Shown here: one piece after another, positions 43,619 through 63,128 of the stretch
How positions within the stretch are numbered: position 1 is the stretch's first letter
Layout: the number at the start of each line of letters is the position of its first letter
Assembly (NCBI GenBank): GCA_016214895.1
Contig: JACRMR010000025.1
Span: 1-64,000, forward strand
Origin: a candidate division KSB1 bacterium
GTDB lineage: Bacteria > Electryoneota > RPQS01
Direction: 5' to 3'
DNA: 64,000 nucleotides
The notes under the pieces: model-generated
The model's input: the letters and a program-made list of their open reading frames with translations, nothing else
Databases searched by the model: none
Told to the model about the DNA's origin: nothing
Program-made: the position numbers and the translations under genes

Positions 43619-43694
43619 GCACCCATAGCTCAATTGGTAGAGCAACTGACTCTTAATCAGTGGGTTCCAGGTTCAAGTCCTGGTGGGTGCACCA
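43619..43694 (+). tRNA. tRNA-Lys (anticodon CTT)
   Basis: A 73-nt cloverleaf can be drawn completely: acceptor GCACCCA/TGGGTGC, D stem GCTC/GAGC, anticodon stem ACTGA/TCAGT with loop CTCTTAA (anticodon CTT), T stem CCAGG/CCTGG with loop TTCAAGT, discriminator A and an encoded CCA (43692-43694). Its 3' end adjoins an integrase gene, the standard layout of a tRNA-targeting genomic island. Confidence 0.95.
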
Positions 43695-43699
43695 GCTAA

Positions 43700-43728
43700 A
43701 AGCCCGTAGGTCAGTGACTTACGGGCTT
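43700..43728 (+). terminator. Terminator after tRNA-Lys
   Basis: AAGCCCGTA and TACGGGCTT pair over 9 bp around an 11-nt centre (itself partly paired), followed by GTTGTTT. Confidence 0.6.
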
Positions 43729-43930: not shown

Positions 43931-44962
43931 TCAGTACGGCAACTTGTCCACCGTTCGTGCAAGATGTTCTGGTGACACGTGGCTGTAGATCATCGTCACG
44001 GTAACGTCGTGATGGCCGAGGATCTCCTGGATGGATGCCAGGTCGACACCCTTCATGACCAGATGGCTGGCGAAGGTGTGTCGCAGCGTGTGAAGCGAGA
44101 CCTTGCCTTCGATCTTGGCGCGACGGACGGAGAGCAGAAACCTCTTGCCCAACGACCAGTAGTTGATCGGAAAGACGCGATCGCCTGGCAGTGCACTAAC
44201 GGGTCGAATCGAGACCAGCATCGTATGCAGCGCGGGGTTAATCGGAATCACGCGGGACCGACCTGACTTCGTCTGAAAACCGACACGGTTCTGCACGGTG
44301 ATCGTACGTCTCTCCATGTCCAGATCGGACCAGCACACATTCACGATCTCGTTTCGCCGCATGCCGGTCCAGAGGGCAAAGTTGACAACGTGGAGCAGTT
44401 CCGGATCATCGGCAATCTCAACACGCAGTCGTTCGACTTCCGCTTCACTCAGGAATCGTGGATGCAGGTTCTTGGGCACGCGGTTCAGCCGAACCTTTGC
44501 TGCCGGGCTTTCCCTCAGTAGCCCCCGCTCCACAGCCCAGTTGAACGCTGCTTTCAGATGCCGCAACGCGACGTTCACGGAGCTCGGTTTGACCGTTTGA
44601 ATTCGAACCGCACGGAAGCGCTCGAAGTGATCAGCAGTGATTTCGCCAAGCTTCGGGTTCCCTATAACCTTGAAAAAGGCCGCGAATGCGTCGCGCTCGG
44701 TCTCGGTCGTCTTTGCAGCTTTTGTGGTGCGTGAGTGGTAAAGGTAGTTACGCATCAAGTCATCGAGTCGAATGGCCTCCCCGCGCCCCTTGCCCCATCC
44801 GTTGAGCACTAGGTCGCGTTCAACTTCGGCAGCGATCCGCTTTGCTTCTCGCATGTCAGAAGTCTTGAGGTCAACGCGCTTCCGTTTCCCGTCATGGCTG
44901 ATATCAAGATACAGTACGGTCGGACGTCCCTTCGTGATGCGAGAACGGATAATCACAGACAT
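43931..44962 (-). CDS. Tyrosine recombinase / island integrase
   Basis: A 343-aa site-specific recombinase. The N-terminal SAM-like core-binding domain spans about residues 55-150. The catalytic domain holds the first Arg in ALWTGMRRNEIVNVCWSDLD, the His-Thr-Leu-Arg-His box HTLRHTFASHLVMKGVDL, the second His in ILGHHDVTVTMIYSHV and the nucleophile Tyr in that same MIYSHVSPEHL segment. It integrates and excises circular DNA, here very probably at the 3' end of tRNA-Lys 240 bp away. Its start is one base after the stop of the excisionase-like gene, whose last codons hold its GGAGG ribosome site, so the two are co-translated. Confidence 0.95.
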   Translation of the reverse strand: MSVIIRSRITKGRPTVLYLDISHDGKRKRVDLKTSDMREAKRIAAEVERDLVLNGWGKGRGEAIRLDDLMRNYLYHSRTTKAAKTTETERDAFAAFFKVIGNPKLGEITADHFERFRAVRIQTVKPSSVNVALRHLKAAFNWAVERGLLRESPAAKVRLNRVPKNLHPRFLSEAEVERLRVEIADDPELLHVVNFALWTGMRRNEIVNVCWSDLDMERRTITVQNRVGFQTKSGRSRVIPINPALHTMLVSIRPVSALPGDRVFPINYWSLGKRFLLSVRRAKIEGKVSLHTLRHTFASHLVMKGVDLASIQEILGHHDVTVTMIYSHVSPEHLARTVDKLPY

Positions 44963-46130: not shown

Positions 46131-46586
46131 CTACTCGGGCTCTTCGTTAAGCAGGCGGTCGAGTTCAGCCTTGTCCTTCGCGAAGTTTTCCTTCTGACTT
46201 TTCAGACTGGCTTCCAACTGAGCCAATGTCTTCTTAGCGCGGGATTTCTCGTAAGGAGTTGGGGCGTCTTCGACTTGCTTCTTTGCGGCGACAATCGTGG
46301 ATTCCTTGGCCATGATGAGCCCTGGAGCGCGTTCGGTCCGTGCCTTCACGAGACCCATCGATCTTCCACCAGTGCTCTTCGTCCTGGCGCGCCGAGCGGC
46401 CTGCTCAATCTTCGTCAGCAAAACGGTCTGAACGCCGGCATCGTAACGTTCTCGGTCTACATACTCGAGACCGGCCACGAGAATCAAAGCGCCGAACTTC
46501 TTTGCCGCACGTCGCAAGGTTTCAATGTCGGGGATACCAATCTCCTCGGCAGCCTTGCGAATCGGCAATACTGTTGATTCACTCAT
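46131..46586 (-). CDS. Island protein with HTH-like start and coiled coil
   Basis: A 151-aa protein. The N-terminus (LPIRKAAEEIGIPDIETLRRAAKKFGAL) could be a small HTH. The C-terminal 60 residues (EDAPTPYEKSRAKKTLAQLEASLKSQKENFAKDKAELDRLL) are a strong coiled coil. A GGAGGT site lies ahead of the ATG. A structural or DNA-binding accessory protein of the mobile element is possible; no family recognised. Confidence 0.6.
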   Translation of the reverse strand: MSESTVLPIRKAAEEIGIPDIETLRRAAKKFGALILVAGLEYVDRERYDAGVQTVLLTKIEQAARRARTKSTGGRSMGLVKARTERAPGLIMAKESTIVAAKKQVEDAPTPYEKSRAKKTLAQLEASLKSQKENFAKDKAELDRLLNEEPE

Positions 46587-46719
46587 TTGTGAACCTCCAT
46601 ATTTGTGTGTAGTCTGGCAGTTAACCGATTGCCGGATTCCGGCCTGTCAACACCATGCGATGACGGGGTTCGCGTTCGACAACAACTACCTCCTTTCCAT
46701 CTTGTCTCCTCATAGACTA

Positions 46720-46837
46720 GTTTTCTTATAGGGGTGCCGCTACAATCGCTTCCAAGATCATCGGCCGTCCCAATCGCCGATTCCGTCTACGTAGGGGTGG
46801 ATCCATGCCCCCACGTAGTATGGTTTTCTTATAGGGG
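46720..46837. repeat. Direct repeats flanking an inverted repeat
   Basis: GTTTTCTTATAGGGG occurs exactly at 46720-46734 and 46823-46837. Between them CTACGTAGGGG (46787-46797) and CCCCCACGTAG (46808-46818) form an 11-bp stem with one mismatch. A regulatory node or a terminator for the leftward sigma-like gene is possible. Confidence 0.5.
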
Positions 46838-46843
46838 CAGCCA

Positions 46844-47284
46844 TCAGGCCCGGCTGTTTCCCACTTGTTTTGGTCCCAAGCCCTCAGCAATCAAGACATT
46901 GCGCAACCTGCCCAACGCTCCTTCTCTTCCGTCCTTGCCACGCAGGATCTCGAAATAGCGCGGTTGGCTAATGTTCATGATCTCCGCCGCTTCCTCCTGT
47001 GTCATCTTCTCCATATGCAACTCGACCGCTTGCTTCCATCGAGGCGGCAGGTCGTCCAATGCCATCATGGCCTTGCTTGGTTCCACCTGTTGACCAGGTG
47101 CATCTTCATTCTCGCAGTCAATTTCGTCGAACGGTGCTTGCCAATTAGGATCGGCGAGCGCCTCGTCTTCGGAGATGGGACGTTGATGCAGTGCCTCCCA
47201 GTCGGTGAACAGTGTTTCGTTTTTCGCAATTCCTACAATGTCGAATCCATCCCTTGCTTGAATCTTCTTCCGTTTCAAAATCAT
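46844..47284 (-). CDS. Sigma-70 region-4-like regulatory protein
   Basis: Start MILKRKKIQARDGFDIVG at 47284 (AAGGGG site) gives 146 aa. The last 60 residues read ALDDLPPRWKQAVELHMEKMTQEEAAEIMNISQPRYFEILRGK, the pattern of sigma-70 region 4 (Leu-Pro, then helix, then Thr-Gln-Glu-Glu-Ala-Ala HTH). No region 2 is present, so it is a small regulator or a phage-type late activator rather than a complete sigma factor. It is upstream of, and reads towards, the coiled-coil and unknown island genes. Confidence 0.65.
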   Translation of the reverse strand: MILKRKKIQARDGFDIVGIAKNETLFTDWEALHQRPISEDEALADPNWQAPFDEIDCENEDAPGQQVEPSKAMMALDDLPPRWKQAVELHMEKMTQEEAAEIMNISQPRYFEILRGKDGREGALGRLRNVLIAEGLGPKQVGNSRA

Positions 47285-47507
47285 CGCCGTACCCCTTAAG
47301 CTTGGGTGTACGGCTACCGGTAGCCGATTTGTTAAGGCGTGGCCACACCTGGTGAAGCGAGAATAATCAAGTCTCGCGAACACAAAAGTACCAGTTTTAG
47401 ATGACGAAGGCAGTATCGCTAAGTCTCCAATGGTTAGCCTAACCACATCCCAGATATAGAAATGCCCAGCATTTGCCGGGCATTTAGAAGAAACAGTAGC
47501 AAGTTAT

Positions 47508-48812
47508 TCAATCAAGCGGGCCCAAGTAATCAGTTAGCCATTCCAGTTCCTCGGGCCAAAGTCCATACGAATTCCTGGGGGAGCTGAGGACAGACTTGGA
47601 CAACCCAAGATCGCTCATGTAGTTCTTAAAGCCAACGTGATTCGCCGCTTCAGCTCCGCCTGGTTCGTCCGATTCATCACGACTGATAAAACCGAGTTCA
47701 AGCAGCAAGGTGCGATAGTCCTTCCTTCTTGATTTTACGAGCTCGTTATAGGCGACTATTACCCGCCGCGCGACTAACATTCGTTGTATTCTCTCGGGAG
47801 CCTCGCGGGTCATATACTCTCGGAAGGTGACGCCTCGCACGCCCTTGTCATATTGGATCTTTGTCAATATGTCGGATGCGATTCGAGGCACATCTGTTTG
47901 ATGCCGCTTCCAGATCGCGGGGTTACGTCTTGCAATCTCGTAGTCAGACAAGTAGGATTTCTTCCATGTACTGGTTATGGCCGGCGGGAGAGGTACCTCA
48001 ACGATATCCGGATCGGTCGCTTCTATACCTTTTTGAAGGTTGTGCATAACTTCACCTTCATTCAACATTACTTTCAAGAACGAAGTCACAACGCCTGGGT
48101 TTCCGAACGCAAGCTTGATCGTCATCCCTTCAACACTTTTCCGGTCGTCAAGTGATCGCCGGTGTCCAGCGCTGCGAAGCTCATTCCAAACGACCCAAAT
48201 CAAATCGTCCATCTCATGTGTGAGTAGCTCGAGTCCGAACGGTATGATCAGGACCGTGGCGTACGAACTGCCGTCATTTCCCCATATTATTGAATTCAGC
48301 GCCTTGCGCAGACCTTTTTGTACGTCACTCACCATTACTTCATACTGACCGTTTTCTGTTCGACGCAACAGCGGCACAAAACAATATGTCACGCCATCTG
48401 TCGACTGGCTGCGCACAAATCGCAAATTGTCCGGTAATTGCTCGTCCTCAGTCGGACCATAAGCTAAATCCGAAGCATTTTCCCCGCGAGATCGGATCCA
48501 TCCATTTGTTGCAAGCTCGGGAGCGTCAAAATTCATGCGACTATCCGCCGGTAGAATGTACAACTCGTAACTCTTGATGTCCTGACTGAACCAGACGCTC
48601 ATCGAAAGCTGCAGCCTAAAGTTCGGCCATTCAAGCTCATAACTGAACGGTTGGTCGTGTTGCACCATGTATTCGGTCACTAACTGGTGCACAAAGCTCT
48701 GAGGTCCGATTGAATCGATGAGTTGAATCACTTCTTCGCTTCTGCCCCTGAGTGAGCCATCGTTTACCCAGCTGCAGAGCAAGTCCCTTATTTGTTGCTC
48801 AAACCACTCCAT
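47508..48812 (-). CDS. Unknown protein divergent from the ubiquitin-like operon
   Basis: ATG 48812 with GGAG 8 nt upstream (MEWFEQQIRDLLCSWVNDGSL) gives 434 aa; earlier in-frame codons lack a ribosome site. No family recognised. The N-terminal half looks beta-rich (FSYELEWPNFRLQLSMSVWF) with a YCFVPLLRRTENGQYEVMVSDV strand pair. The C-terminal half is helical and basic, ending LEWLTDYLGP. No catalytic motif, membrane helix or nucleotide site is visible. It shares a 197-bp upstream region with the ubiquitin-like modifier gene. It may therefore be a regulator, target or effector of that system, which is inference from position only. Confidence 0.65.
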   Translation of the reverse strand: MEWFEQQIRDLLCSWVNDGSLRGRSEEVIQLIDSIGPQSFVHQLVTEYMVQHDQPFSYELEWPNFRLQLSMSVWFSQDIKSYELYILPADSRMNFDAPELATNGWIRSRGENASDLAYGPTEDEQLPDNLRFVRSQSTDGVTYCFVPLLRRTENGQYEVMVSDVQKGLRKALNSIIWGNDGSSYATVLIIPFGLELLTHEMDDLIWVVWNELRSAGHRRSLDDRKSVEGMTIKLAFGNPGVVTSFLKVMLNEGEVMHNLQKGIEATDPDIVEVPLPPAITSTWKKSYLSDYEIARRNPAIWKRHQTDVPRIASDILTKIQYDKGVRGVTFREYMTREAPERIQRMLVARRVIVAYNELVKSRRKDYRTLLLELGFISRDESDEPGGAEAANHVGFKNYMSDLGLSKSVLSSPRNSYGLWPEELEWLTDYLGPLD

Positions 48813-49009
48813 TGCAAACGCTCCTACGTTGGGTGACAAAAATGTTATCTCCATTAAGACTATTGAGAATCTACTGAATCTAATGGAATAATGCATCCCC
48901 TAAACGGGAGAATTCAATTTAGCTCCAAAGTGAAGAAATATATGGCATAAGATGGTGGAACACATTGTGGATAACGAATTGATCACCTAACTCAGTGAGG
49001 AAGGTCGCC

Positions 49010-49225
49010 GTGAAAATCAAGGTCTTGTGCCTCGGCCGATCGGCCAAGGAAATCGAGGTCTCGCCCGAGACCACCGTCGAGCAGGCAATCCAGCAGTCCG
49101 GCTTCCCCAAGGACTCCAGCTACACCCGGCATGTCAACGGCAGTCCGGCCTTCGATTCAGACATCTTGTCGGAGGGAGCGGTATTGACCCTCGTGCCGCA
49201 GGTCAAGGGAGGCTGCAGGTCTTAA
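49010..49225 (+). CDS. Ubiquitin/ThiS-like modifier protein with Gly-Gly-Cys-Arg-Ser end
   Basis: A 71-aa beta-grasp protein. GTG 49010 is selected over the in-frame GTG 48995 because GAGGAAGG lies 5 nt upstream. Segments fit a ThiS/MoaD/ubiquitin fold: KIKVLCLGRSAKEIEVSPETTVEQAI (strand, turn, strand, helix), then TRHVNGSPAFDSDILSEGAVLTLVPQV and the end KGGCRS with Gly67-Gly68. The diglycine is followed by three residues, so trimming by the JAMM peptidase encoded two genes downstream would be needed before E1 can adenylate it. First gene of a Ubl-E2-JAMM-E1 operon. Sulfur-carrier roles (ThiS/MoaD) are possible in general but the E2 and JAMM partners argue for protein conjugation. Confidence 0.85.
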   Translation: MKIKVLCLGRSAKEIEVSPETTVEQAIQQSGFPKDSSYTRHVNGSPAFDSDILSEGAVLTLVPQVKGGCRS

Positions 49226-49236
49226 GCAGCTACCCA

Positions 49237-49284
49237 CCAACGAGAGGGCTCTGGTCGTAACTGGCTGGAGCCCTCTTTCGTTGG
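49237..49284 (+). promoter_or_regulatory. Intra-operon hairpin between modifier and E2 genes
   Basis: CCAACGAGAGGGCTC and GAGCCCTCTTTCGTTGG pair over 15 bp with a 2-nt bulge around a 16-nt loop. The 3' arm runs into the GGGAGA ribosome site of the E2-like gene. It could attenuate transcription or mask that site, raising modifier over enzyme. Confidence 0.65.
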
Positions 49285-49293
49285 GAGATAAAG

Positions 49294-50310
49294 ATGATCG
49301 AACAAATCAAAGACCTGCTGCGATTCTACTCGCAGCGCTATCATGTGCCGATCGACCTGCTGGTCGAAGCACACCAGATCGATGCATGGGATCGGAATGG
49401 GCTGATCGTTGCGATGCCGATGTCTGGGCCGGCTGAATTGCTTCTGGGAGAAGCAATATTCCACTTCGACCCAGAATTTGGACTGAAGCTGCGCGGTGAT
49501 CTGCTGGTGCAGAATGCCCAGTCCGTCGGTCGCAGCGGCAAGACGTGGCTCGCGTTGCATCTGTGCCCGGTGAACGCATCTGCAAGCGCATTCGTTCGCA
49601 ATGTGATCGATCAGCAACTGCCCAGGATGTGTCGGGAGTACAGGCACGAACAGAAAGATGCTCTCGTCGATGCAATTGCATCCTGTGTGCAGGATCGCAA
49701 GCGTGAGTTGCAATCAAGCCTGCGCGAAGATCAGTACGAGCTCGAGCGGCTCAGTCTACAGCTGATGCAATTGTCGCGGAAGATTGAAAGCGACCGGCAG
49801 ATTCTGCGGCTGTTCGAGAAGTCGGCGGAATGGATCAAGGCTCGTGCGATTCGGACGTACGTTGACCTGCTAAAGCTGGTGCCGGGATGCTATCAGCACT
49901 TTGTCATCGACGAGGAAAGCATCTTTGGGACAACGCATGAGATCGCAATCACGTATGATGATCACACCTACGTTTTTGACCCGTACGAGATCGAGATCAA
50001 CATGCGAACAGGGAAGCTGATGATCCGAGGCGGGACCAACGTGAACGACTATCTGCACCCGCACATTTCGTCAGACTCCGTTTGCTTCGGAAACATCGGA
50101 CACATGGTCAGCAGGATGACCGGCGAGCTGGATCTGTTCGGATTGTTCCAACTCGTGCACACGTTTCTCACGACGTATAATGCGAGTGATCCGTATCAAC
50201 GCATCGAGAAGTGGGACCCGAGTTGGGAAGAAGAGTGCGACGATGACGAACCGTACTGCTCTTGGTGCGACGACTATGGTCACGAGATCTGCGATTGCGA
50301 ATCCTGCTAG
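49294..50310 (+). CDS. E2 (UBC)-like protein with coiled coil and Cys-rich zinc-type tail
   Basis: A 338-aa protein started by GGGAGATAAAG. Residues 1-115 form an unrecognised domain and about 118-175 a coiled coil (QDRKRELQSSLREDQYELER). Residues about 195-300 match an E2 core: GTTHEIAITYDDHTYVFDPYEIEINM, then H255-P256-H257 (HPN box) and SSDSVCFGN with Cys264 nine residues on. That is the E2 order HPN then Ile/Val-Cys-Leu/Phe, followed by the crossover helix region LFGLFQLVHTFLTTYN. The C-terminal 30 residues are acidic with C315, C322, C325, H330, C333, C335 and C338, a likely zinc-binding unit. It should carry the modifier as a thioester and pass it to a target. The family assignment rests on these motifs and its neighbours. 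Confidence 0.75.
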   Translation: MIEQIKDLLRFYSQRYHVPIDLLVEAHQIDAWDRNGLIVAMPMSGPAELLLGEAIFHFDPEFGLKLRGDLLVQNAQSVGRSGKTWLALHLCPVNASASAFVRNVIDQQLPRMCREYRHEQKDALVDAIASCVQDRKRELQSSLREDQYELERLSLQLMQLSRKIESDRQILRLFEKSAEWIKARAIRTYVDLLKLVPGCYQHFVIDEESIFGTTHEIAITYDDHTYVFDPYEIEINMRTGKLMIRGGTNVNDYLHPHISSDSVCFGNIGHMVSRMTGELDLFGLFQLVHTFLTTYNASDPYQRIEKWDPSWEEECDDDEPYCSWCDDYGHEICDCESC

Positions 50311-50395
50311 TGGTGTGATCACTGTAACGAACATGTTGACCATGAAGAAGAAGACTGTCCAAACCGTCCTAAAGTCGAAGAAACGGAGGAAGCCG

Positions 50396-51106
50396 ATGCA
50401 GTGGCAGACGAACAAGCAGCGTGATCCGGTCAAGCTGCCGATCAAGATACAAGTGGATGCCGTTGCGATGCAGAAGCTGTGGCTCTGGACTGATCAGGCT
50501 AAAGGCGAAGTCAGTGCGTTGGGTCTGGTCGACGAGCTTCGTGATGCTGAATCTGGTGTGCTGAACGGGCTGCTCGTGACCGACTTCCTCCTGACCAAGC
50601 AAGTCTGCAGCATGGATGAGACCACGATGGATCCCGCAGGTGTAGCCGAGCTGCTCATGGATCTCGAGTCTCGAGATGTCGACACGAAGAAGCTGCGCTG
50701 CTGGGCACATAGTCACGGCGGCATGTCTGTGTTCTGGTCGGGGCAAGATGACCAGTGTATCGAGGGACTGGCGAACGGTGAATGGCTACTTAGCCTCGTT
50801 GTGAACAAGCGGCGCGACTCGATCATGCGCTTGGATCAGTACCATCCCGCGCATTTGTACATGTCTGATTGCGTCTGGGAAGTGCATTATCGAACAGCGG
50901 ACGGTCTGGCTGAAGCATGCTTTGCGGAGTTCAAGTCACAAGTCACGGAGGCCTCCGGATTGCTGATGCCGAACCTTCGTTCGGGATTTGATCACATTGC
51001 TGATTTAAAGTCTGCACACGAACGCGGCAGTCTTACGGACGAAGATCTGCAGGAGGAAATGTCGTGGTGCGGCTTGTCCATGGAAGACTTCGATGAGGTG
51101 CCATGA
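50396..51106 (+). CDS. JAMM/JAB isopeptidase
   Basis: ATG 50396 is selected by a perfect GGAGGA 5 nt upstream, giving 236 aa. The frame is open much further left and overlaps the E2-like gene, but that part has no coding character. The metal motif is complete: Glu38 in KGEVSALG, then H105-S-H107-x7-S115-x2-D118 in CWAHSHGGMSVFWSGQDD. The JAMM family cleaves isopeptide or C-terminal tails of ubiquitin-like proteins with one zinc. Here it is the obvious candidate to release Gly-Gly from the modifier precursor and to remove conjugates. The C-terminal 60 residues are charged and helical (DLKSAHERGSLTDEDLQEEM). Its stop overlaps the start of the E1 gene (ATGA). Confidence 0.92.
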   Translation: MQWQTNKQRDPVKLPIKIQVDAVAMQKLWLWTDQAKGEVSALGLVDELRDAESGVLNGLLVTDFLLTKQVCSMDETTMDPAGVAELLMDLESRDVDTKKLRCWAHSHGGMSVFWSGQDDQCIEGLANGEWLLSLVVNKRRDSIMRLDQYHPAHLYMSDCVWEVHYRTADGLAEACFAEFKSQVTEASGLLMPNLRSGFDHIADLKSAHERGSLTDEDLQEEMSWCGLSMEDFDEVP

Positions 51107-51765
51107 CCGACGATCGATTCCTCCGCCAATCGGATGTCCTCGATGCCAGCAAGGTGAGCCAGTTGGGGATTACCCTTATCGGATTAGGATCCATTGGCAG
51201 CGTAACGGGTTTGGCACTTGCGAAACTCGGCGTGGTGGGGCTAACTGCATACGATGCAGACTTTGTGGAAAGCCACAACTGGTCGAATCAGATGTATTCT
51301 GACAGCGATATTGGCTCTCTGAAGGCCACAGCATTCACTATGCTGCTTGAAACGTACGGAGGTCAGACACCCAATGCTGTGCCAGCTCGCTTCGCTGAAC
51401 AGACGCTGACCGAGATCGTGATCTCCGCAGTTGATTCGATGGAGAGTCGCAAGTTGATATGGCGTGCAGTTCGCGAGCAGTCGCAAATGCGATTGTACAT
51501 CGATTCTCGCATGGGTCTCGAAACACTCGACGTCCATGTCGTGCGGCCGCAGATCAGGGAGGATCGTGTTCGATACTCCGCGACATTGGTCTCCGACGCG
51601 GAGACCCTGCAAGAGTCTTGCACTGCACGATCTGTCTGCTACACGCCGCTGATGGCGGCCAGCATAATCTGCAATCTGATTCGGCGTTACGTGAACGACG
51701 AGCAACTGCCGTCGCGAGTTATCCTCGATCTCGCAACATTCACGTTGCTGACGATTCCCCAATGA
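51103..51765 (+). CDS. Minimal ThiF/E1-like activating enzyme
   Basis: A 220-aa single-domain ThiF fold. The nucleotide-binding loop is IGLGSIGS (G27, G29, G32). The ribose-binding acid is in LTAYDADFVESHNWSNQ (D51/D53). A conserved Lys74 follows, then AVDSMESRKLIW with D111. The cysteine segment ETLQESCTARSVCYTP holds C173 (or C179) as the candidate thioester residue. E1-like enzymes adenylate the modifier C-terminus and move it to an E2. At 220 aa this is about the smallest size that keeps all these motifs, with no separate Cys or ubiquitin-fold domain. It is coupled to the JAMM gene by an ATGA overlap. Confidence 0.92.
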   Translation: MTDDRFLRQSDVLDASKVSQLGITLIGLGSIGSVTGLALAKLGVVGLTAYDADFVESHNWSNQMYSDSDIGSLKATAFTMLLETYGGQTPNAVPARFAEQTLTEIVISAVDSMESRKLIWRAVREQSQMRLYIDSRMGLETLDVHVVRPQIREDRVRYSATLVSDAETLQESCTARSVCYTPLMAASIICNLIRRYVNDEQLPSRVILDLATFTLLTIPQ

Positions 51766-51786
51766 ATCACAACCTGAAAGGACAAT

Positions 51787-51885
51787 ATGAACGGACCTCG
51801 AACCGGATGCAAAATCGTCGATGCCGTGTGTGGCATTGCGGATCGCATTTGCGGAAATGACCGGTCAAGCGATGACGACGAGTAG
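51787..51885 (+). CDS. 32-codon ORF at the end of the ubiquitin-like operon
   Basis: ATG 51787 follows AAAGGA by 4 nt and ends at TAG 51883-51885, giving a 32-aa peptide (MNGPRTGCKIVDAVCGIADR, then ICGNDRSSDDDE). It holds three Cys and an acidic end. It is 21 bp after the E1 stop and 22 bp before the operon terminator, so it belongs to the transcript. No homologue is known to me; chance is possible for so short a frame. Confidence 0.45.
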   Translation: MNGPRTGCKIVDAVCGIADRICGNDRSSDDDE

Positions 51886-51963: not shown

Positions 51964-53352
51964 CTATCGAATCAGAACCATCTTCTTCTGATCGGTGAAC
52001 TTGCCGGCTTTCAGCTGGTACACATAGACGCCGGACGCTACAGTTGAGCCGCCCATGTTCTTGCTGTCCCAGAGGATGTTGTAGGCACCCGCGGGGCGCA
52101 TGGCATCAACCAGCGTCGCGACTTCTTGGCCGAGGATGTTGAAGACTCTGAGCTGAACCTGCGCAGCCTCGGGTAGGTCGAACCGGATCTCCGTGTTCGG
52201 ATTGAACGGGTTGGGGAAGTTCTGGTAGAGCCAATACTCAGTAGGCAAGACGATCAGTTCCCTGGCAGGATCGTCGAATTCAGAACCCATGGCGTCCAAT
52301 GTAGATCCAATCCCAAAGGATCGGAGTCGAAAGATCCCATCCTCGGAAACTGAGATTAGCACAAGTCGTCCAGACGCCTGACGAATTCGCACCAGTTGTT
52401 CCCCGGGTACCAGATCCTCGACTTCAGCATCATAGCGGATTGAGCTATTCAACGAGTCGAATGTAGTCCAGCAGAGGAGCTTGAGCTTTGCCCAGTCATA
52501 AACCACGACTCCCACGCCAGGCATCAACGTCACGTCCCGCGGGTACATGTAGAGGGAGTCATCAGCTACGCACCAAACACTGGAGTGCCTGTAGATTCGT
52601 GCATTGGATTCGCGAGCAGTCAGGTGATCAACCCGGCTATTCTTTGTATCGACGACGTATAGGTGCGCAGTCCCGGTACTATCGACGAATCCTGCGATGT
52701 CACTGATCCAGCGGTAGCTCCACGGAGATACGCCCCACCTGCCGTAGGTAGAGAGAACGGCTCCGCTGGTGTCGACTCTGACAATTCTGCTATTCGTCTC
52801 ATCGAGCACAAAGAAACTTCCCACGCCCCAGTACACTCCAACCGGCCGTCCCAGCATCGGACTCGATACAAAGTGGGAGAGAGTTACTTCTCCGGTCGAA
52901 TCAGAGAAGCGATAGAGTGCCAGGCGACTCTCCGCGGCATCGGCGACAACCAGAAAGTCTGTGACCGGATCAAAGTACGTTCCTCGTTTCATCTGACACA
53001 TAGCCCTCGGCATGCGGAGCGGATCTGTTGCTCCGGGATCATCACCGGATGAAACGACATCAAAGTAGTGAAGGCTGTCGGTGGTGGTGACTCGGAACTG
53101 GATGAAGTGCGGTCGGCCACCATCGAGAACCACGATGCGATAGTCGTAAGGGGACAGCCGAATGACCTCGATATCCAGTGGATCCTGGAATCCGAAGTCC
53201 GTGGAGTCCGAGCTTGCGATGAACCACTCGTCGCTCAGCGCGTCCAATCCAGGAATACTGAAGAAGTCACTCTCTTGGACGAAGTGCAACTGCCCGAAAG
53301 CAGCACGCACCCAGAGCAGGAGTAGTGAGACGGCGAAGATTCTTGTATTCAT
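51964..53352 (-). CDS. Secreted beta-propeller-like protein with FCB sorting tail
   Basis: ATG 53352 (GGGAG site; MNTRIFAVSLLLLWVRAAFGQ signal peptide) gives 462 aa. The body shows repeated strands of an NHL/6-bladed propeller type (FLVVADAAESRLALYRF, SFFVLDETNSRIVRVDTSG, HLYVVDTKNSRVDHLTA). The last 85 residues are the sorting module (LYQNFPNPFNPNTEIRFDL, ASGVYVYQLKAG, KMVLIR). A ligand-binding or scaffold role outside the cell is likely. It is the last gene of a leftward four-gene operon and converges on the ubiquitin-like operon. Confidence 0.8.
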   Translation of the reverse strand: MNTRIFAVSLLLLWVRAAFGQLHFVQESDFFSIPGLDALSDEWFIASSDSTDFGFQDPLDIEVIRLSPYDYRIVVLDGGRPHFIQFRVTTTDSLHYFDVVSSGDDPGATDPLRMPRAMCQMKRGTYFDPVTDFLVVADAAESRLALYRFSDSTGEVTLSHFVSSPMLGRPVGVYWGVGSFFVLDETNSRIVRVDTSGAVLSTYGRWGVSPWSYRWISDIAGFVDSTGTAHLYVVDTKNSRVDHLTARESNARIYRHSSVWCVADDSLYMYPRDVTLMPGVGVVVYDWAKLKLLCWTTFDSLNSSIRYDAEVEDLVPGEQLVRIRQASGRLVLISVSEDGIFRLRSFGIGSTLDAMGSEFDDPARELIVLPTEYWLYQNFPNPFNPNTEIRFDLPEAAQVQLRVFNILGQEVATLVDAMRPAGAYNILWDSKNMGGSTVASGVYVYQLKAGKFTDQKKMVLIR

Positions 53353-53405
53353 GGCGACTCCCGAAGTCTTGACTTGGTCACTTCTATCCACCCCAACTTG
53401 ACAAC

Positions 53406-54314
53406 TCACCGCTCGTTCCGGGCGGCGTCCTCCTGAAGCCCGCGGCGGATCACCTGATAGAACTCTTCATATTTCTCGAGTGTCACGCCGTGACTCCGCG
53501 GAAACCAAATCACTTGCCCCGTCGTCTGGTAGAGCGTATCCAAATAGAAGAGCGCGAGGTCGAAGCGACCGAGACGCTCTGCACAATGCCTCGCCTGCTC
53601 AAAGCCCAAGGTACCCACCATGTCTGCCGCAAGCTGAGAATCCGCGATGGCGATTCCCGCGGCGAAGTCGCACGCGTGCTGCGCAAGCCAGATCCGGCTA
53701 CCCACAACCCACAGGGTGTCATCCCGCGAACACGGAGCCACGACATCAAATCGAAGGTCATAGTTGCTCGGCACGCGACCAAACTCCGGCGTCTCGCAAT
53801 ACCCGCGAATGTACACGGTCTTCCCGCCAAGCTCCGCCGGGACAACCGCCGTAAAGTGAAACGTGCGAAACTCATACGACATGTATGCACTCCACGGCTG
53901 GCCTGCCGCCCACAAGCTGTCCTGATAGAGCTGATCGCGGGTGACGATCGGCCGCAAGGAGAACCGTTCGCGTAGCGCCGGATCGGCGCGAAAGCCCGCG
54001 CCGCCTGCCAGACTGAACTCGATGTCCACGCCCTCCGGCCAGCCGCGGATCAGTCGGAGGGATGAATCCACATTGGCCTCGGACGGATACAGCGTGTAAC
54101 GGACAATCAAGTCGAGCGACGTTCCGGCCAACCGTGGGTGAACTCCGCCGCCGCAATCCCCCCCCGGGCCATCTGGCGTAACCTCGGACACCACCACCGA
54201 CATGCGATCCGCACTTGGCAGCGCCCAGACGTTCGACCAGGTCACTACCGCAAGCAGGAGCGAGAGCGCGGCGCGGGGCAGCGACAACGATATGAGCGCG
54301 ATTTGGATCATCAT
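53406..54314 (-). CDS. Exported protein of unknown function, paralogue 1
   Basis: A 302-aa protein with an export helix (LSLPRAALSLLLAVVTWSNVWA). Conserved with its upstream neighbour are the openings DRMSVVVSEVTPDGPGGDC, a YPSEANVDSSLRLIRGWPEGVDIEFSLAGG segment, the FTAVVPAELGGKTVYIRGY strand, the APCSRDDTLWVVGSRI segment and a helical end with FDLALFYLDTLYQTTGQ. The mature N-terminal part looks beta-rich and the C-terminal part helical (TPR-like). I recognise no family. It arose by tandem duplication with the gene at 54359. Confidence 0.7.
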   Translation of the reverse strand: MMIQIALISLSLPRAALSLLLAVVTWSNVWALPSADRMSVVVSEVTPDGPGGDCGGGVHPRLAGTSLDLIVRYTLYPSEANVDSSLRLIRGWPEGVDIEFSLAGGAGFRADPALRERFSLRPIVTRDQLYQDSLWAAGQPWSAYMSYEFRTFHFTAVVPAELGGKTVYIRGYCETPEFGRVPSNYDLRFDVVAPCSRDDTLWVVGSRIWLAQHACDFAAGIAIADSQLAADMVGTLGFEQARHCAERLGRFDLALFYLDTLYQTTGQVIWFPRSHGVTLEKYEEFYQVIRRGLQEDAARNER

Positions 54315-54358
54315 GGCCTGGCCCGTAGATCGTAACCCTCGGTGGCGCTGCTGCTCCG

Positions 54359-55276
54359 CTACCGCGGCCCGCCGGCCGCATCTTCGAGGAGGTGAGAGCG
54401 TATGCTAATGTACTCCTCTTGCCATTGTGCCGGCGTACGCCATCCCGTCGGAGCCCACTCTGTCTTGCCGGTAGCGCGATATAATGTGTCCAAGTAGAAT
54501 ATGCTACGGTCGTAATCGCCCACCTGAGAAGCGCAATACCGCGCGAACTGAAGGCCGAGAGTCCCAATCATTCCTACTTCGACGAGAGAATCGCCGAGAG
54601 CGATTCCTTCCGCGAAGTCACTCGTGCGATATGCCATCCGAACCCGGCTCCCCAAGATCTGTAGAGTGTCTTCGCGAGAACATGGGGCAACCATGTGATA
54701 GACACGGTCGTAATTGCTATGCTTACGTCCGAACTCGGAGGTCGTATAGTAAGCACGGGCGTAGACAGTCTTCCCGGCTAGCTCTGGAGGAACTACCGCT
54801 GCAAACTGGAACTCGCGGAAGGAGGACCAATGACTGGAGTCCAGCTGCCCAAGCGCGCGAAGGCTATCGTCTTTCAGTTGCTGGCGGCTGAAGAATGGAC
54901 GCAGTCGAAAACGCTGCTGAAGGATCGGATCTGAACTGAAGTTCTTCCCCCCGGCCCAGCTGAACTCGATTTCTACGTATGCGGGCCACCCCGGGTCGAG
55001 CCGCAGGAACGGGTCAGCATTGGCCTCAGTTGGCATGAGATAGGCACTAATCACGAAGTAGAGTGAACTGCCTGCAAGAATCGCATCAATCCTGTCTGCA
55101 CAGTCCCCATCCCCGCCGGGGGCAGCTACCTCCGCAAGCACTACCGAAACATCCCGCGCCGACGGTACCGCGCTGCAGGCGAATTGGACAACCGTGGCTA
55201 GGGCAAACGTGAAGACTGCATTGATCGAGACCCGCCGTATCGCATCGCTCGCAGACCAGAGACGTGACCATTTCAC
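54359..55276 (-). CDS. Exported protein of unknown function, paralogue 2
   Basis: The start is GTG 55276, selected by GGAGG 8 nt upstream, giving 305 aa (export helix INAVFTFALATVVQFACSA). It aligns with the gene at 53406 along its length: RDVSVVLAEVAAPGGDGDC, MPTEANADPFLRLDPGWPAYVEIEFSWAGG, FAAVVPPELAGKTVYARAY, APCSREDTLQILGSRV and YDRSIFYLDTLYRATG. Its GTG overlaps the TGA of the 1236-aa gene upstream (GTGA), showing translational coupling. Function unknown. Confidence 0.7.
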   Translation of the reverse strand: MKWSRLWSASDAIRRVSINAVFTFALATVVQFACSAVPSARDVSVVLAEVAAPGGDGDCADRIDAILAGSSLYFVISAYLMPTEANADPFLRLDPGWPAYVEIEFSWAGGKNFSSDPILQQRFRLRPFFSRQQLKDDSLRALGQLDSSHWSSFREFQFAAVVPPELAGKTVYARAYYTTSEFGRKHSNYDRVYHMVAPCSREDTLQILGSRVRMAYRTSDFAEGIALGDSLVEVGMIGTLGLQFARYCASQVGDYDRSIFYLDTLYRATGKTEWAPTGWRTPAQWQEEYISIRSHLLEDAAGGPR

Positions 55277-58200
55277 GGACGGTACCTCCGTTGAGTATCG
55301 CAACTAAATTGATCATGCCGAAATCCCCAAGCGGAATTCCCCGAGCCGTTGGCGTACTGTGTGATCCACTGTGCCCAACTGTCATCGTCATTGGGAATCG
55401 TTCCCAGCGGGTTTTTCAGGAAGCAACCGTCGACATTCCCCGCGGTCTGAGGGACATGGTCATCGATGTCGAGTGCGTGTCCAAGCTCATGAAGCAGAAC
55501 TCGCTGGAGGAGTATTTCGCGCACTTGTTGAACTTGATTGCCTTCCAGATTGCTGTGTTCGCTCCAATCTGTCACCCGGTCGTCAATCAGGTTAACCAGC
55601 ACCCCGATCTCAACGCAACCCGCGCTCCCCGGGAACGCGTCGCCCGTACGGATGACACGACCGTATTCGATCTCGGGGTCACCAGTACGACGAAGCGGGA
55701 TCACCGTCTGTTGGGGGCGAGGGACGATGTCGCTATTGGGAAACCCCGGGGGCAAAGGGTACAGCGGGCGTGGCATCACGGCGTAGGCCACCGCCGTCCA
55801 CTGGTCATCCGCCACGCTATAGTGCTGCTGCTTGGTATCCAGGAAGTACTGGATGCCCGCTGACGTCTCAAAAGAATCGGTCAGCGCGGCCAACTGGGCT
55901 GCATCAGAACTGAGGAGAATCAGATCGCCGCCAATAACCGACGGAATCACCTCATTCTGGAACCATGGATCGCTCAAGTAGGAGAAGCTGAGGACATTCC
56001 CCATGTCCGTGACAAACATCTGCGGCCGAGTGTGATCGAGGCTTCTCCAACTGAAGGGATCGGTGGCAGTAATGACACCCCGATACTCTTCCCACCGCGT
56101 CAAACCGTCGAGGTCGGAATCATCACTTGCCCAATCCACATCGTCGTGCCATTGATCGTATCCCAGCGGGAGCTTACAGCTTTCCAATGCAGAGCCCCCA
56201 TCCGGGGGGCGGAACTCCGCGGACCTGATACGCGTACCGTCTTCCGCGATTTCCCAGACACTGATTTCCATCTCAGCCGCGTAGTCGAGCACCAAAACAC
56301 GGAATTCAATTGGGTCTTCCGTGGCTTCACTGCTGATCATCGTGGACTGCCCAAAGTCCTGATGATCATTCAAAGGAGTCTCCCATCCCGCGTCAGCGAC
56401 CATGACCGCGTCCAGATACTGATCCTCTTCCTGCGGTACCGCCCAGTTCATGGCCGCGCCTTCGTACATGGACGGCTTGCAAACAACCATCCATCGGGCT
56501 GGGTACCGAGGCGTGAGGCGGAACGACAACGTCTGCCCGTACATTGGCCGGTAATCAGCATAGGTCATCGACTCAGGCAATTGACCGATTTCAAAATAAT
56601 TCACGCGGCGATCCACCGCGACTTCGCCCAAGACTGTTCCGAAGCCGTCCGTGAACTCAAGCCTCCACAGCGAGTGAGGTTCAACCTCCAACACGGGTCC
56701 GGCGCACCACTGGCCGTAGAATGGCAGGGCAGGGATCTGGCCGGGTCCGGGATAGACATAGACTCCTGGAAGATCGCGTTGTTGACCGTCTTGCGCCTGG
56801 TAAAGAGTTATGCTCTGATTCTCCAGGCAGGATGTATGGTTGCCGGATGCGTCCACGTTGTCAATATCTACCCTGACCTCAACAGATGGCTCTGTGTGAT
56901 GGTAGGCGTACAGAAGCAGCCCCACCTGATCCGAAGGCCGTACGAATGAAACCAGATGACGACAATCATTGCCTGAGTTCGGGTCAAAAGCTCCAAGCTT
57001 GCCAATACCGCTCGGCCAGTCCGTAAACTGACCCACGATACTCTCGCAATCCAGATCCAATTCCGTTGCGTTAGCGACGAACTGTGACCACATCCCTTGC
57101 GCACTAACCTGAACCACTGACTGAACGAGTTGTTCAAACGTCTCGGTGTTCCACTCCGGCGGCCCAGTGAAGGCTTCCGCCTCAGCGTTTGGATCTACCA
57201 ACGTTCCGTTGTCTATCAGATCTCGGAGGTATTCAAGATAGCCACCAGACGGGTCATCATAGAGTTCCAGAACGTGTTCACGCCAGCTTGCGAATGCGGG
57301 GAAGGGTTGCCGATCTGGCTCGTCGCACTGTTGGAATGCAAACGTCGGACACAGATCCGGGCGGCCGGGATTCGCAATGAACGGCGCGACTCGCAGTTGA
57401 AGATCGAACTCGAAGGGTCCCCGATCTCCGCTTCCAGGAGTTACGTACCACACGCCTTGGTTAGGTCCTGTAGAAACCCGCGCGACGCTGACTTCGATGT
57501 CCTCAGGGAGCGGCACCTGCAGTTCGTAGCGGAGCACATTCTCGAATAGCCAACCGCTCGACGTACCGTTATCGCAGTTTTTTCCAGGCAAGGCGGGGCA
57601 TTCTATCTGTGGATCGACGACGAACGCATCGTCAACGTTGATCGTACCGGGCTGTACGGACCAGTCTCGTGGCGTCACTTCAACATCCAGCCGAAGGCCC
57701 GTCTCCGCTACGTTTCGACCTTCCATGTACGGCCATTCAGAGCCGCTTCCCCAATTCACGAAATAGACGGAATCCAAATACACGTGCCCGTTCTCCACCA
57801 GCTTTCCCTCCCACTCGAGTCCATCGATGACTTCCGCCTTCCCAATATGAACACCATCGGGATCTCTGATCAATGAGGAAGTTCCCTGGTACTTTCGCAC
57901 GAATGCCAGCGGGTATAGCGGACCCTCGACCGGGAGGATTCGCAGTGAATAGCTCCCTTCGGTCCCGCGCATCAGCGAGTTCGGGCCCTCAATTCCCACC
58001 TGCGTGTTATAGACTCTCTCTACGGCCATGAATTCCTGGTAATAAGCCTTGAGAGGCAAGTATTCTTGTGGTGGAATCGTCACGTCGCCGGGGAGGTACC
58101 AGTAAGCGGGGTAGCGTTCAAACTCATTGAACTGGTATCTGAAGCCGCCAACATCAATGTAGTTATCCAACGAGAGCCAAGCGGGGTCATATGAGTCGTC

Positions 58201-58983
58201 AAAACTCAATTCCACGAGTTCCGGCGGATCAATACAGAGCGGATCATTGAGCTTACGCTTCAACACCAGGATCACTCGCTCCCGCATGTCCTGGTGCTCG
58301 GTACGGGCGTTATAATGTTCGACTATCTGATTGTTCGCGAAGTATAGATCCACGACGGGATTGCACTGTTTTAGCAGTGAATCGAGATTCAGAGAATCGA
58401 GATACTCTCCGTCATTCGGGCTCAAACCCGGAGGTAGCCCGTTCCATGTTACGAACTGGCAATCCGAACCCAACTCGCACATCACGGAGATCTTTCCTCC
58501 ACAACGTGTTTCCATATATACGCAATATTGATTGTACGAGTCGCAACCATCGGTTGATCCCGGGACATGCGACACGCACCAAACGTCGTAATACCCGGGA
58601 GTAAAGATGTTGCAGTAGCCCGCCACACATGGAGGGTTGGGGCGGAAGTAAACACCCACTACTGGTCTCGCACAGTCGTCAAGGTGTGGGCAGTATCCGC
58701 ACGCTGCTTCGCATTCCCACTCGGCCGACGTAGCGACGAAGTACCGGGCAATAAGAATGTCGGCCATCGGTCTGTGAAACTGAAAGTTCACAATGGCATG
58801 GTAATCTGTGCGACCACTCTGGGCGGCAGCGATCTGGAAATCAACTGTCGGAGCGACGCACGCCCACAACAAGAAACACCTCGCCGCGGCACGCAGCAAG
58901 GTGTCGATGGTGGTTCGTCGATCGGTAGGCCGTCCGTCAGGAATGGATAGAATGTTCGGCAGGAAGGATGTCAGGGCAGGCAT
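55273..58983 (-). CDS. Large secreted protein with C-terminal metzincin-like HExxH site
   Basis: ATG 58983 (GAGGTAG site) gives 1236 aa; a longer frame starts further upstream without a ribosome site. An export helix is expected near LLRAAARCFLLWACVAPTVDFQIAAAQ. Cys-rich segments follow (EWECEAACGYCPHLDDCARP, YCVYMETRCGGKI). Several beta-rich domains come next, including RYELQVPLPEDIEVSVARV. The C-terminal 90 residues contain LLHELGHALDIDDH followed by CFLKNPLG and HDQFSC. The spacing HExxHxxxxxxH departs by one residue from the canonical HExxHxxGxxH, so activity is uncertain; Asp in the third-ligand position is possible. First gene of the secreted operon. Confidence 0.65.
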   Translation of the reverse strand: MPALTSFLPNILSIPDGRPTDRRTTIDTLLRAAARCFLLWACVAPTVDFQIAAAQSGRTDYHAIVNFQFHRPMADILIARYFVATSAEWECEAACGYCPHLDDCARPVVGVYFRPNPPCVAGYCNIFTPGYYDVWCVSHVPGSTDGCDSYNQYCVYMETRCGGKISVMCELGSDCQFVTWNGLPPGLSPNDGEYLDSLNLDSLLKQCNPVVDLYFANNQIVEHYNARTEHQDMRERVILVLKRKLNDPLCIDPPELVELSFDDSYDPAWLSLDNYIDVGGFRYQFNEFERYPAYWYLPGDVTIPPQEYLPLKAYYQEFMAVERVYNTQVGIEGPNSLMRGTEGSYSLRILPVEGPLYPLAFVRKYQGTSSLIRDPDGVHIGKAEVIDGLEWEGKLVENGHVYLDSVYFVNWGSGSEWPYMEGRNVAETGLRLDVEVTPRDWSVQPGTINVDDAFVVDPQIECPALPGKNCDNGTSSGWLFENVLRYELQVPLPEDIEVSVARVSTGPNQGVWYVTPGSGDRGPFEFDLQLRVAPFIANPGRPDLCPTFAFQQCDEPDRQPFPAFASWREHVLELYDDPSGGYLEYLRDLIDNGTLVDPNAEAEAFTGPPEWNTETFEQLVQSVVQVSAQGMWSQFVANATELDLDCESIVGQFTDWPSGIGKLGAFDPNSGNDCRHLVSFVRPSDQVGLLLYAYHHTEPSVEVRVDIDNVDASGNHTSCLENQSITLYQAQDGQQRDLPGVYVYPGPGQIPALPFYGQWCAGPVLEVEPHSLWRLEFTDGFGTVLGEVAVDRRVNYFEIGQLPESMTYADYRPMYGQTLSFRLTPRYPARWMVVCKPSMYEGAAMNWAVPQEEDQYLDAVMVADAGWETPLNDHQDFGQSTMISSEATEDPIEFRVLVLDYAAEMEISVWEIAEDGTRIRSAEFRPPDGGSALESCKLPLGYDQWHDDVDWASDDSDLDGLTRWEEYRGVITATDPFSWRSLDHTRPQMFVTDMGNVLSFSYLSDPWFQNEVIPSVIGGDLILLSSDAAQLAALTDSFETSAGIQYFLDTKQQHYSVADDQWTAVAYAVMPRPLYPLPPGFPNSDIVPRPQQTVIPLRRTGDPEIEYGRVIRTGDAFPGSAGCVEIGVLVNLIDDRVTDWSEHSNLEGNQVQQVREILLQRVLLHELGHALDIDDHVPQTAGNVDGCFLKNPLGTIPNDDDSWAQWITQYANGSGNSAWGFRHDQFSCDTQRRYRP

Positions 58984-59767
58984 GTCTACCTCGCTTCCAA
59001 GGTTCCCCAAGTGATCTGGAGGTAGTATAGCATGGTGAATCGAAAAAGTCAAGTGAAACAGGTAACAAGAGCGACCTGTAGCCACGGCTGGACCGCTTAC
59101 CACATTGACGGCAATGTGACAAAGCGACCGGGATAAGTTGTTGTTTTCTTGTATCGAAGCCGGCTTGAATGCGAATCAGAATTCGCGCCAAGACCGATTC
59201 GTCACACCCTGTGTGCAAGGATTAGGCAGACGCATGAGAGCTTCTCCTCTTCGTTGCGAAGGCGGGGCCAAGTGCATGTGAACCTGCTCCGAAGCGGTCA
59301 CCCCGGCGGTCATCGCCGGCTTTCTATTCTGGCATAAGAAGGTGATGACCGTCATCTTTAGTTAAGGAGTCACCCTGTGGCGTAGAATGCCTCCGGTGCT
59401 GCTCTGCGAAGCCGGACACGCGCTTGCGAGGCTATTCACACGCATCCGACGACGCTGGCGTAAAACAGAGGAGCAGGTGTTGGCCTGCTCTGTTACGTAT
59501 ATTGGTACGGCGTGCTTCGCTTCAATGCTGACGTAGATATGCCGCTGCAACTGCTGGTGGGAGGCTATTACCTACGCCGGGATGTAGTAGCTGCTACATC
59601 GATCAGCAGCTGAATAATCGCGGCTTTTCTTTAGCTGTCCCTCGACCGATGCTACCAAGCCGCTTCCAGCACAAAGAATACGTCTTAAGTAGTCTGCTAC
59701 CGGCTAAAAATCAGGTGGTTTTTGCGATTACTGGCATTTTGTCGCATGCATGCGCGCGAAACCTGTT
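58984..59767. other. Non-coding hairpin-rich stretch upstream of a mobile replication module
   Basis: No coding ORF is supported over about 780 bp. It contains many short perfect palindromes: CACATTG/CAATGTG (59101-59118), AAGCCGGCTT (59157-59166), GCGAAT/ATTCGC (59171-59186), CACAC/GTGTG (59203-59215), CCGGCG/CGCCGG followed by CTTTCTATT (59303-59328), GATGAC/GTCATC (59344-59356), GAGCAGG/CCTGCTC (59471-59490) and GATGTAGTAGCTGCTACATC (59581-59600). Some could be terminators; the density suggests structured RNA or an element end. Confidence 0.5.
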
Positions 59768-60020: not shown

Positions 60021-60311
60021 GTGATGCCAGTGAGTGAAGTCGGTGATGAAGGTGATGCAAACGTGATCGAGCTTTTGGCTGATTTCTCCTCTCATGGTGA
60101 TGAAAGTGATGAAAGTGATGGACATTTTCGAAAAACTTTTTAGCGACCTACCACAGTAGTTGTATTCTATTCTAATATCAAAAATATATTCTTAATAAAT
60201 GACATCACTCACATCACTTCCATCACTTTGTTATCATAAGTTGAGCAATTACTCAACTTACAGCGGTGATGTATTTTCGGTTCAATACGTCGAAAACATC
60301 ACCGACATCAC
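60021..60311. other. Candidate replication origin: iterons around an AT-rich core
   Basis: GTGATG units occur on the plus strand at 60021, 60042, 60052, 60097, 60106 and 60115, the last three spaced exactly 9 bp (GTGATGAAA). Complementary CATCAC units occur at 60203, 60212 and 60221, again 9 bp apart, with further copies at 60266 (direct), 60298 and 60306. Between the two arrays lies an AT-rich tract (about 60158-60200, with AATATCAAAAATATATTCTT). It sits directly after the primase-helicase gene. Symmetrical iterons plus an AT-rich unwinding region are the usual features of an initiator-dependent origin. Confidence 0.55.
60237..60260. terminator. Hairpin after the primase-helicase gene
   Basis: TAAGTTGAG and CTCAACTTA are exact 9-bp complements around CAATTA, 48 bp beyond the primase-helicase stop. 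Terminator or part of the candidate origin. Confidence 0.5.
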
Positions 60312-62896: not shown

Positions 62897-63128
62897 AATT
62901 TGTTCTCCTATTATCATAAATTAGTGCTTTTAACATTTTCTGTGCCGCCAAATAATCTTGCGCATGAACAGTCGCTGCATTGCAGTGAAAGCTCTGTTCA
63001 AGTTCGCGAACCGTCTTGTCATCGTTAAATGTGAACCACATCTGGCTCATGCTGTCCATTTCGTACGCTAATAGCGCACATTTTTTCGCGACAAATAACG
63101 CCGCTAAGCCAAAATCTTTAGTCTTCAT
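62853..63128 (-). CDS. Small phage-type protein (DUF5659-like)
   Basis: A 91-aa protein starting MKTKDFGLAALFVAKKCALLAYE, then MWFTFNDDKTVRELEQSFHCNAATVHAQDYLAAQKMLKALIYD. A Lys-Thr-x-Asp-x-x-x-Ala-Ala opening, a FxF strand and a closing helix ending in LKxLI resemble the DUF5659 family that sits next to phage replication genes; function unknown. AGGAG ribosome site; it overlaps the primase-helicase start. Confidence 0.65.
   Translation of the reverse strand: MKTKDFGLAALFVAKKCALLAYEMDSMSQMWFTFNDDKTVRELEQSFHCNAATVHAQDYLAAQKMLKALIYDNRRTNYEHKLGRVDYSITR

Follow-up and report, generated by a model that had tools for sequence, protein, structure and literature searches.

A candidate ubiquitin-like conjugation cassette of phage-type lineage on a tRNA-Lys island of a candidate division KSB1 bacterium

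The DNA analysed here (the window) was a stretch of 64,000 nucleotides from a candidate division KSB1 bacterium (assembly GCA_016214895.1, contig JACRMR010000025.1, positions 1–64,000). It contained a compact operon at positions 49010–51885, in which the genes of a ubiquitin-like protein (Ubl), an E2-like protein, a JAMM metalloprotease and an E1-like protein followed one another on the forward strand. We propose, with a probability of roughly 0.78, that this operon is a self-contained cassette for Ubl conjugation and deconjugation, that it belongs to a phage-type lineage, and that mobile elements integrated at tRNA genes transport it as cargo. Judged from the motifs of the four proteins, a conjugation and deconjugation cassette is very likely. 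An earlier, sequence-only reading of the window had described such an operon, followed by a small open reading frame (ORF), on a tRNA-Lys island. All of these genes were present with the motifs that it had named, and the island was supported by an integrase and a 68-bp repeat at the tRNA-Lys gene.

The four proteins and the interrupted E2 frame

The first gene (49010–49225, GTG start) encoded a beta-grasp modifier precursor of 71 amino acids, which comprised a single domain and ended in VKGG-CRS. The homologues in related elements were 64–85% identical, and in all of them an invariant VKGG was followed by one to three variable residues, which fits a Ubl that is processed as a precursor. The protein matched Pfam ThiS at 3.3e-4, slightly under the cut-off, and was recognized as a beta-grasp Ubl with a C-terminal di-glycine. 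The third gene (50396–51106; ATG start chosen from the relatives) encoded an Rpn11-like JAMM metalloprotease of 236 amino acids. Its metal site was complete (E38, H105-x-H107-x7-S115-x2-D118) and invariant in 15 element copies.

The fourth gene (51103–51765) overlapped the end of the JAMM gene by 4 nucleotides and encoded a minimal, single-domain E1 of the ThiF superfamily (220 amino acids) with a GxGxIGS loop, but without the CxxC zinc pair and without a Cys-domain insertion. Pfam ThiF matched it at 2.6e-12, and this was the sole model above its cut-off when the operon proteins were scanned directly with Pfam, NCBIfam and PADLOC. The predicted catalytic residue, Cys173, was the only Cys invariant among 16 diverse E1s (24–65% identical to the first), and the protein thus appears to be an E1 adenylation domain with a putative catalytic Cys. 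The families proposed earlier for these three proteins held up in profile searches: the profile of diverse Ubls matched the archaeal SAMP2 in the PDB at 8.1e-12, the profile of diverse JAMM proteins matched Rpn11 (6fjv) at 1.6e-10, and the E1 profile matched UBA5 at 1.8e-10.

The second gene (49294–50310) encoded the E2-like protein of 338 amino acids, which had no match in Pfam. It consisted of an N-terminal domain (residues 1 to ~95), a long helix or coiled coil (95–175), a predicted UBC domain (~176–317) and a first CCHC zinc knuckle (C322-x2-C325-x4-H330-x4-C335). The putative active site read H255-P256-H257...C264-x-G266. Among 14 E2s, most of which were only 14–26% identical, C264 and G266 were invariant and H257 nearly so. 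The HPHxxx...CxG pattern of the relatives was close to the eukaryotic HPN...C site, as in locus L035 (HPHVRDGRPCLG). The sequence-only reading had expected a UBC fold around His255–Cys264, and structure prediction agreed with it. The full-length model had a mean predicted local distance difference test score (pLDDT) of 71.5, and its top six PDB fold matches were all ubiquitin E2s. The model of the core, built from 27 sequences, reached a pLDDT of 84.8 and a predicted template modelling score of 0.78; all ten of its top matches were ubiquitin E2s, including UbcH7, UBE2L6 and Ube2W, with probabilities of up to 0.93. By sequence the signal was weak: individual members matched UQ_con at 0.017, Prok-E2_D at 0.048 and Prok-E2_B at 0.12, and the E2 profile alone gave no significant match to PDB sequences. 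The predicted UBC fold with an active Cys is therefore strong through the consistency of its matches, not through any single score.

The sequence-only reading had overlooked a nonsense codon in this gene. An in-frame TAG was located at 50308–50310, where the intact relatives encode Trp in most cases, Tyr in L002 and His in L026. Behind it, the frame remained open and conserved (WCDHCNEHVDHEEEDCPNRPK...) from 50311 to 50424, with a TGA at 50422–50424, when compared with the intact tails of 13 relatives; the JAMM gene overlapped this read-through frame. The E2 of the window would thus end before the second zinc knuckle and the acidic tail, barring read-through or an assembly error, and its function may be impaired. 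The TAG could be a recent nonsense mutation, a recoding signal or an error of assembly. Here, a further explanation has to be considered, namely decay of the window copy to a remnant, with an operon that no longer functions in this genome. Every intact relative has Trp, Tyr or His at this codon, and a decayed copy is known in locus L034, whose E2 is broken past codon ~44. However, the UBC domain, the putative catalytic Cys and the first zinc knuckle were kept, the other three genes were intact, the phage E2s of L035 and L042 had no zinc tail at all, and in a draft genome an assembly error is possible. We consider decay rather unlikely, though it deserves the most weight among the alternatives. 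In the decayed copy of L034 (6534–7429), the Ubl was intact, and codons 1–44 of the E2 continued, without a change of frame, as a glutathione-peroxidase-like sequence; the integrase of that locus was likewise split.

Relatives in phages and tRNA-integrated elements

The operon was first met in two genomes in an initial scan. In a sample of 39 genomes of the phylum, which included the metagenome-assembled genome Calditrichaeota bacterium AABM5.125.24, it was found in 10; one of these carried four copies and one carried three. A search with the Ubl profile recovered the identical 10 genomes. The order Ubl-E2-JAMM-E1 on a single strand was kept in every locus of the phylum that was intact and long enough. 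The ratio of nonsynonymous to synonymous substitution rates (dN/dS) was mostly 0.05–0.19 for each of the four genes, which indicated purifying selection; these values are approximate, as pairs with saturated dS could not be computed and dS was high in most of the remaining pairs. The same order in all intact related copies together with the low dN/dS suggested that the operon is more than a chance arrangement. The distribution outside the phylum rests on one scan of a genome collection and one close query.

Most relatives were found in phages, and only the E1 searches opened them up. Searching E2 by tblastn against plasmids and INPHARED phages gave no match, and an E2 profile scan of viral contigs gave none that could be confirmed. 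The E1 profile detected 10 relatives in IMG/VR at first, and a wider profile detected 107 stretches, of which 80 were kept. Among 81 unique IMG/VR contigs, 72 had the order E2-JAMM-E1 and three more had the same order with a split JAMM gene (75 in total). One contig had E2-E1-JAMM, and five were without some of the parts, four of them with the E1 at or near the edge of the locus. A small ORF, usually a Ubl, preceded the E2 in nearly all 81 contigs. As judged by eye, in the subset closest to the window this ORF typically ended in VKGG, VRGG, IKGG, KAG or similar, plus zero to four residues, and the Ubls of crAss-like phages had a long extension after KSG or RSG. In two loci of crAss-like and Flavobacterium phages (L045, 1767–2402; L046, 1616–2485), ~100–200 amino acids lay beyond this KSG or RSG, the presumptive conjugation end.

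The E1 also matched 78 INPHARED phage records, which belonged to Flavobacterium phages, Bacteroides and crAss-like phages, and Xanthomonas jumbo phages. In the records that were read, the genes were annotated as 'thiamine biosynthesis protein', as 'contains metalloprotease domain' or as hypothetical. Nearby terminase genes confirmed L039 and L043 as phage. The cassette in cr111_1 was located between the genes of a DNA primase and a uracil-DNA glycosylase; a primase-like family recurred on the upstream side (48 loci) and an exonuclease-like one on the downstream side (43 loci). In the E1 tree, the element copies formed one clade (100/100) within a group that held 16 phage rows (99/91), and this group was set apart both from PRTRC (100/99) and from the remaining 65 phage rows (100/99). 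Capture of the cassette from phages would be the simpler reading of this tree, although its root is uncertain and this is not proof. A weak match to the phage-type E1 was also seen in L143, the 175-kb circular plasmid OY726001.1 of Phocaeicola massiliensis, which might be a phage-plasmid.

In the window, the operon lay on a mobile island integrated at a tRNA-Lys(CTT) gene (43619–43694, forward strand). A perfect 68-bp direct repeat covered the 3' end of this gene (43646–43713), and its second copy was found outside the window, at 88229–88296 of the contig. These repeats bounded an island of 44.6 kb that extended beyond the window; a search for short repeats marking its end between 43.4 and 53.6 kb found none, the end being 44.6 kb away. 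The tyrosine integrase of the island (43931–44962, reverse strand; Phage_integrase, 4.2e-28) was homologous to integrases in 11 other loci. Genes of tRNA-Lys, Ser, Glu, Asp or Met, or of tmRNA, were present in many of the same loci, and 16 kb of L030 were bounded by a repeat that comprised at least 40 nucleotides of tRNA-Asp.

Upstream of the operon, a divergent gene (47508–48896, reverse strand) had homologues in L021, L023 and L030 with a sigma-54 activator AAA domain. When this gene was compared among the window, L021, L023, L030 and L033, the N-terminal part was variable and the C-terminal part apparently shared. It was neighboured by a small regulator resembling sigma-70 region 4 or a helix-turn-helix protein (46844–47446, reverse strand). 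A 32-nucleotide direct repeat (46703–46734 and 46806–46837, 78% identical) lay in the short intergenic region on the upstream side of the gene at 46131–46586. Following the E1, a micro-ORF of 32 amino acids was found at 51787–51885 on the forward strand, with similar ones in L021, L026 and L032 (by eye, and weakly so). All four shared a C-x-I-[VI]-x-A...A-C appearance and might represent a small accessory peptide or a substrate. Directly downstream of the operon, both in the window (51964–59103) and in many of the loci L023–L032, lay genes for large secreted proteins whose C-terminal tails were of the type IX kind. A DUF5906 protein of 869 amino acids (60308–62917) also lay inside the island, and related genes were found in L023 and L032.

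Proposed function

In the proposed pathway, the JAMM protease would trim the Ubl precursor after VKGG, and it could cut conjugates too. In some phages the Ubl ends in GG from the outset, and the protease therefore probably also strips the Ubl from its targets. The single-domain E1 would adenylate the Gly-Gly end and then hold the Ubl as a thioester on Cys173, from which it would be handed to Cys264 of the E2. This UBC-fold protein would attach the Ubl to amines of its targets, and its coiled coil and zinc knuckles would probably select them; no separate E3 was seen. We infer this chemistry from the conservation of the motifs.

Some observations weighed against this reading. The fold matches of the E2 had E-values of 0.03–0.4, none below 0.001, and template modelling scores of about 0.4–0.5. 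The E1 motif was NWSNQ, without the Arg of the usual NxxRQ, and the E1 of the L026 element lacked several residues conserved in the others. In addition, one and the same phage set served to refine the E2 profile and to count its hits, so the numbers of E2 hits are not independent; as a control, among the 2267 ORFs screened, the hits fell into the position immediately in front of the JAMM or E1 gene.

The role of the cassette is most likely protein modification in the conflict of phage, mobile element and host. Both a use by phages (taking over the host, counter-defence or modifying replication proteins) and a use by the elements (protecting themselves or their host from other phages) are compatible with this. 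A purely host-defence reading is less likely, because most of the relatives found lie in phage genomes. We further speculated that tailed phages, those of the crAss-like group in the human gut among them, possess a full Ubl conjugation machinery of their own, with which they modify proteins of the host or of the virus in the course of infection, and that integrative elements of a poorly known bacterial phylum captured one branch of it as portable cargo. The odds of this wider proposal seem about even. No report of ubiquitin conjugation in phages, crAss-like ones included, was found in the open-access literature searched, although such reports may exist.

Until now, Ubl conjugation in bacteria has mostly been linked with defence against phages. 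That very different tailed phages keep the full Ubl/E2/JAMM/E1 set with its gene order unchanged suggests that bacterial viruses use Ubl conjugation too. The set also offers a reading for the crAss-like phage genes that are labelled 'thiamine biosynthesis protein ThiF', 'metalloprotease domain' or hypothetical. The cassette would add an E2 family that is not recognized by Pfam, with coiled-coil and zinc-knuckle additions, beside a very small single-domain E1, and both bear on the origin of the eukaryotic cascade.

Comparison with known systems

The cassette was compared by its features with PRTRC, Bil and CBASS, and with the library models of PADLOC, Pfam and NCBIfam. The sequence-only reading had suggested an uncatalogued class, partly on the ground that the gene order differed from that of Bil. 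The system models of the three libraries were indeed not matched. The argument from gene order falls, because in BilABCD the C protein is the JAMM and the D protein the E1 (PMC11354881), which gives the same order, and PRTRC shares it as well.

The operon might be a plain member of PRTRC, whose cassette we equated, by our own identification, with operon type 6d of Iyer et al. (2006, PMC1779556), or else of Bil. The PRTRC order is C(Ubl)-F-B(E2, Prok-E2_D)-A(JAB)-ThiF, and it has stand-alone single-domain parts and a location on mobile DNA, as here. The E1 profile matched PRTRC ThiF at 2.8e-20 over 197 columns, a homology over the full length, and the JAMM core matched PRTRC_A at 9e-5, a comparison weakened by one member of the PRTRC_A alignment (L140:5156–5857, annotated as hypothetical) that resembles PRTRC_B. 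However, the curated cut-offs were missed widely (PRTRC_ThiF, 45.1 of 144.75 bits; PRTRC_A, 14 of 101.8), and the PRTRC E1s formed a clade of their own. PRTRC_B matched Prok-E2_D at 2.6e-50, whereas the E2 of the window had no match to it; a search of the genome itself for Prok-E2_D carried no weight, since even its controls gave no match. The match between the UBC domain and PRTRC_B was insignificant (hhalign probability 8%) and was not taken as proof of homology. PRTRC has ParB, E and F proteins and a JAB protein with its own N-terminal domain. None of the three was recognized in the window or element loci, except for one ParB in L003, though divergent E and F proteins could be missed. That ParB, downstream in L003, was rejected as a sign of PRTRC, as the other loci had none. 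The E2s of type 6d have no His before the Cys (Iyer et al., 2006, PMC1779556), and those of PRTRC have a conserved His after it, whereas HPH precedes the Cys here and a coiled coil and zinc knuckles are present. The PRTRC Ubls compared ended in TKG, some with long tails, unlike the VKGG found here.

In BilABCD, the order is likewise Ubl-E2-JAMM-E1, and the JAMM protein trims the Ubl precursor (PMC11354881). However, BilA has two Ubl domains, BilB has a C-E-H-H motif after the Cys, and BilD combines an inactive and an active adenylation domain with a Cys domain of ~80 amino acids (PMC11354881). The cassette had a single-domain Ubl of 71 amino acids, HPH upstream of the Cys with no CEHH, and a single-domain E1 of 220 amino acids. 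Plain membership of either catalogued system is thus improbable.

Sulfur transfer, in which the Ubl would be a ThiS/MoaD-like carrier, the E1 would make an acyl-adenylate and the JAMM protein would merely mature the carrier, is very improbable: ThiS and ThiF are the nearest families to the Ubl and E1 in Pfam and NCBIfam, and sulfur operons with JAMM and ThiS/MoaD exist (Iyer et al., 2006, PMC1779556), but a predicted UBC-fold E2 with conserved HPH...C stands between the Ubl and JAMM genes, the loci examined had no rhodanese or sulfur genes and none was a thiamin or molybdopterin locus, the setting that the sequence-only reading had named as pointing to sulfur transfer, the phage neighbours were primase, exonuclease and uracil-DNA glycosylase-like genes, and the genome has a separate MoaD-MoeB-rhodanese fusion (contig C3, 304876–305580), the only other ThiF-superfamily gene found there.

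The conjugation cassette proposed here also shares E1/E2/JAMM chemistry with CBASS Cap2/Cap3 and with 6A-MBL, and the similarity of its E1 profile to them was under the cut-off. Cap2 is an E2-E1 fusion attaching CD-NTase, without a separate Ubl. Here, E1 and E2 were encoded by separate genes and no CD-NTase was recognized in the loci, in contrast to CBASS type II. A further bacterial ubiquitination-like pathway, Bub, is named in PMC13373217. Taking these features together, the cassette is neither Bil nor CBASS, it is a member of none of the library systems tested, and with PRTRC it is only distantly related.

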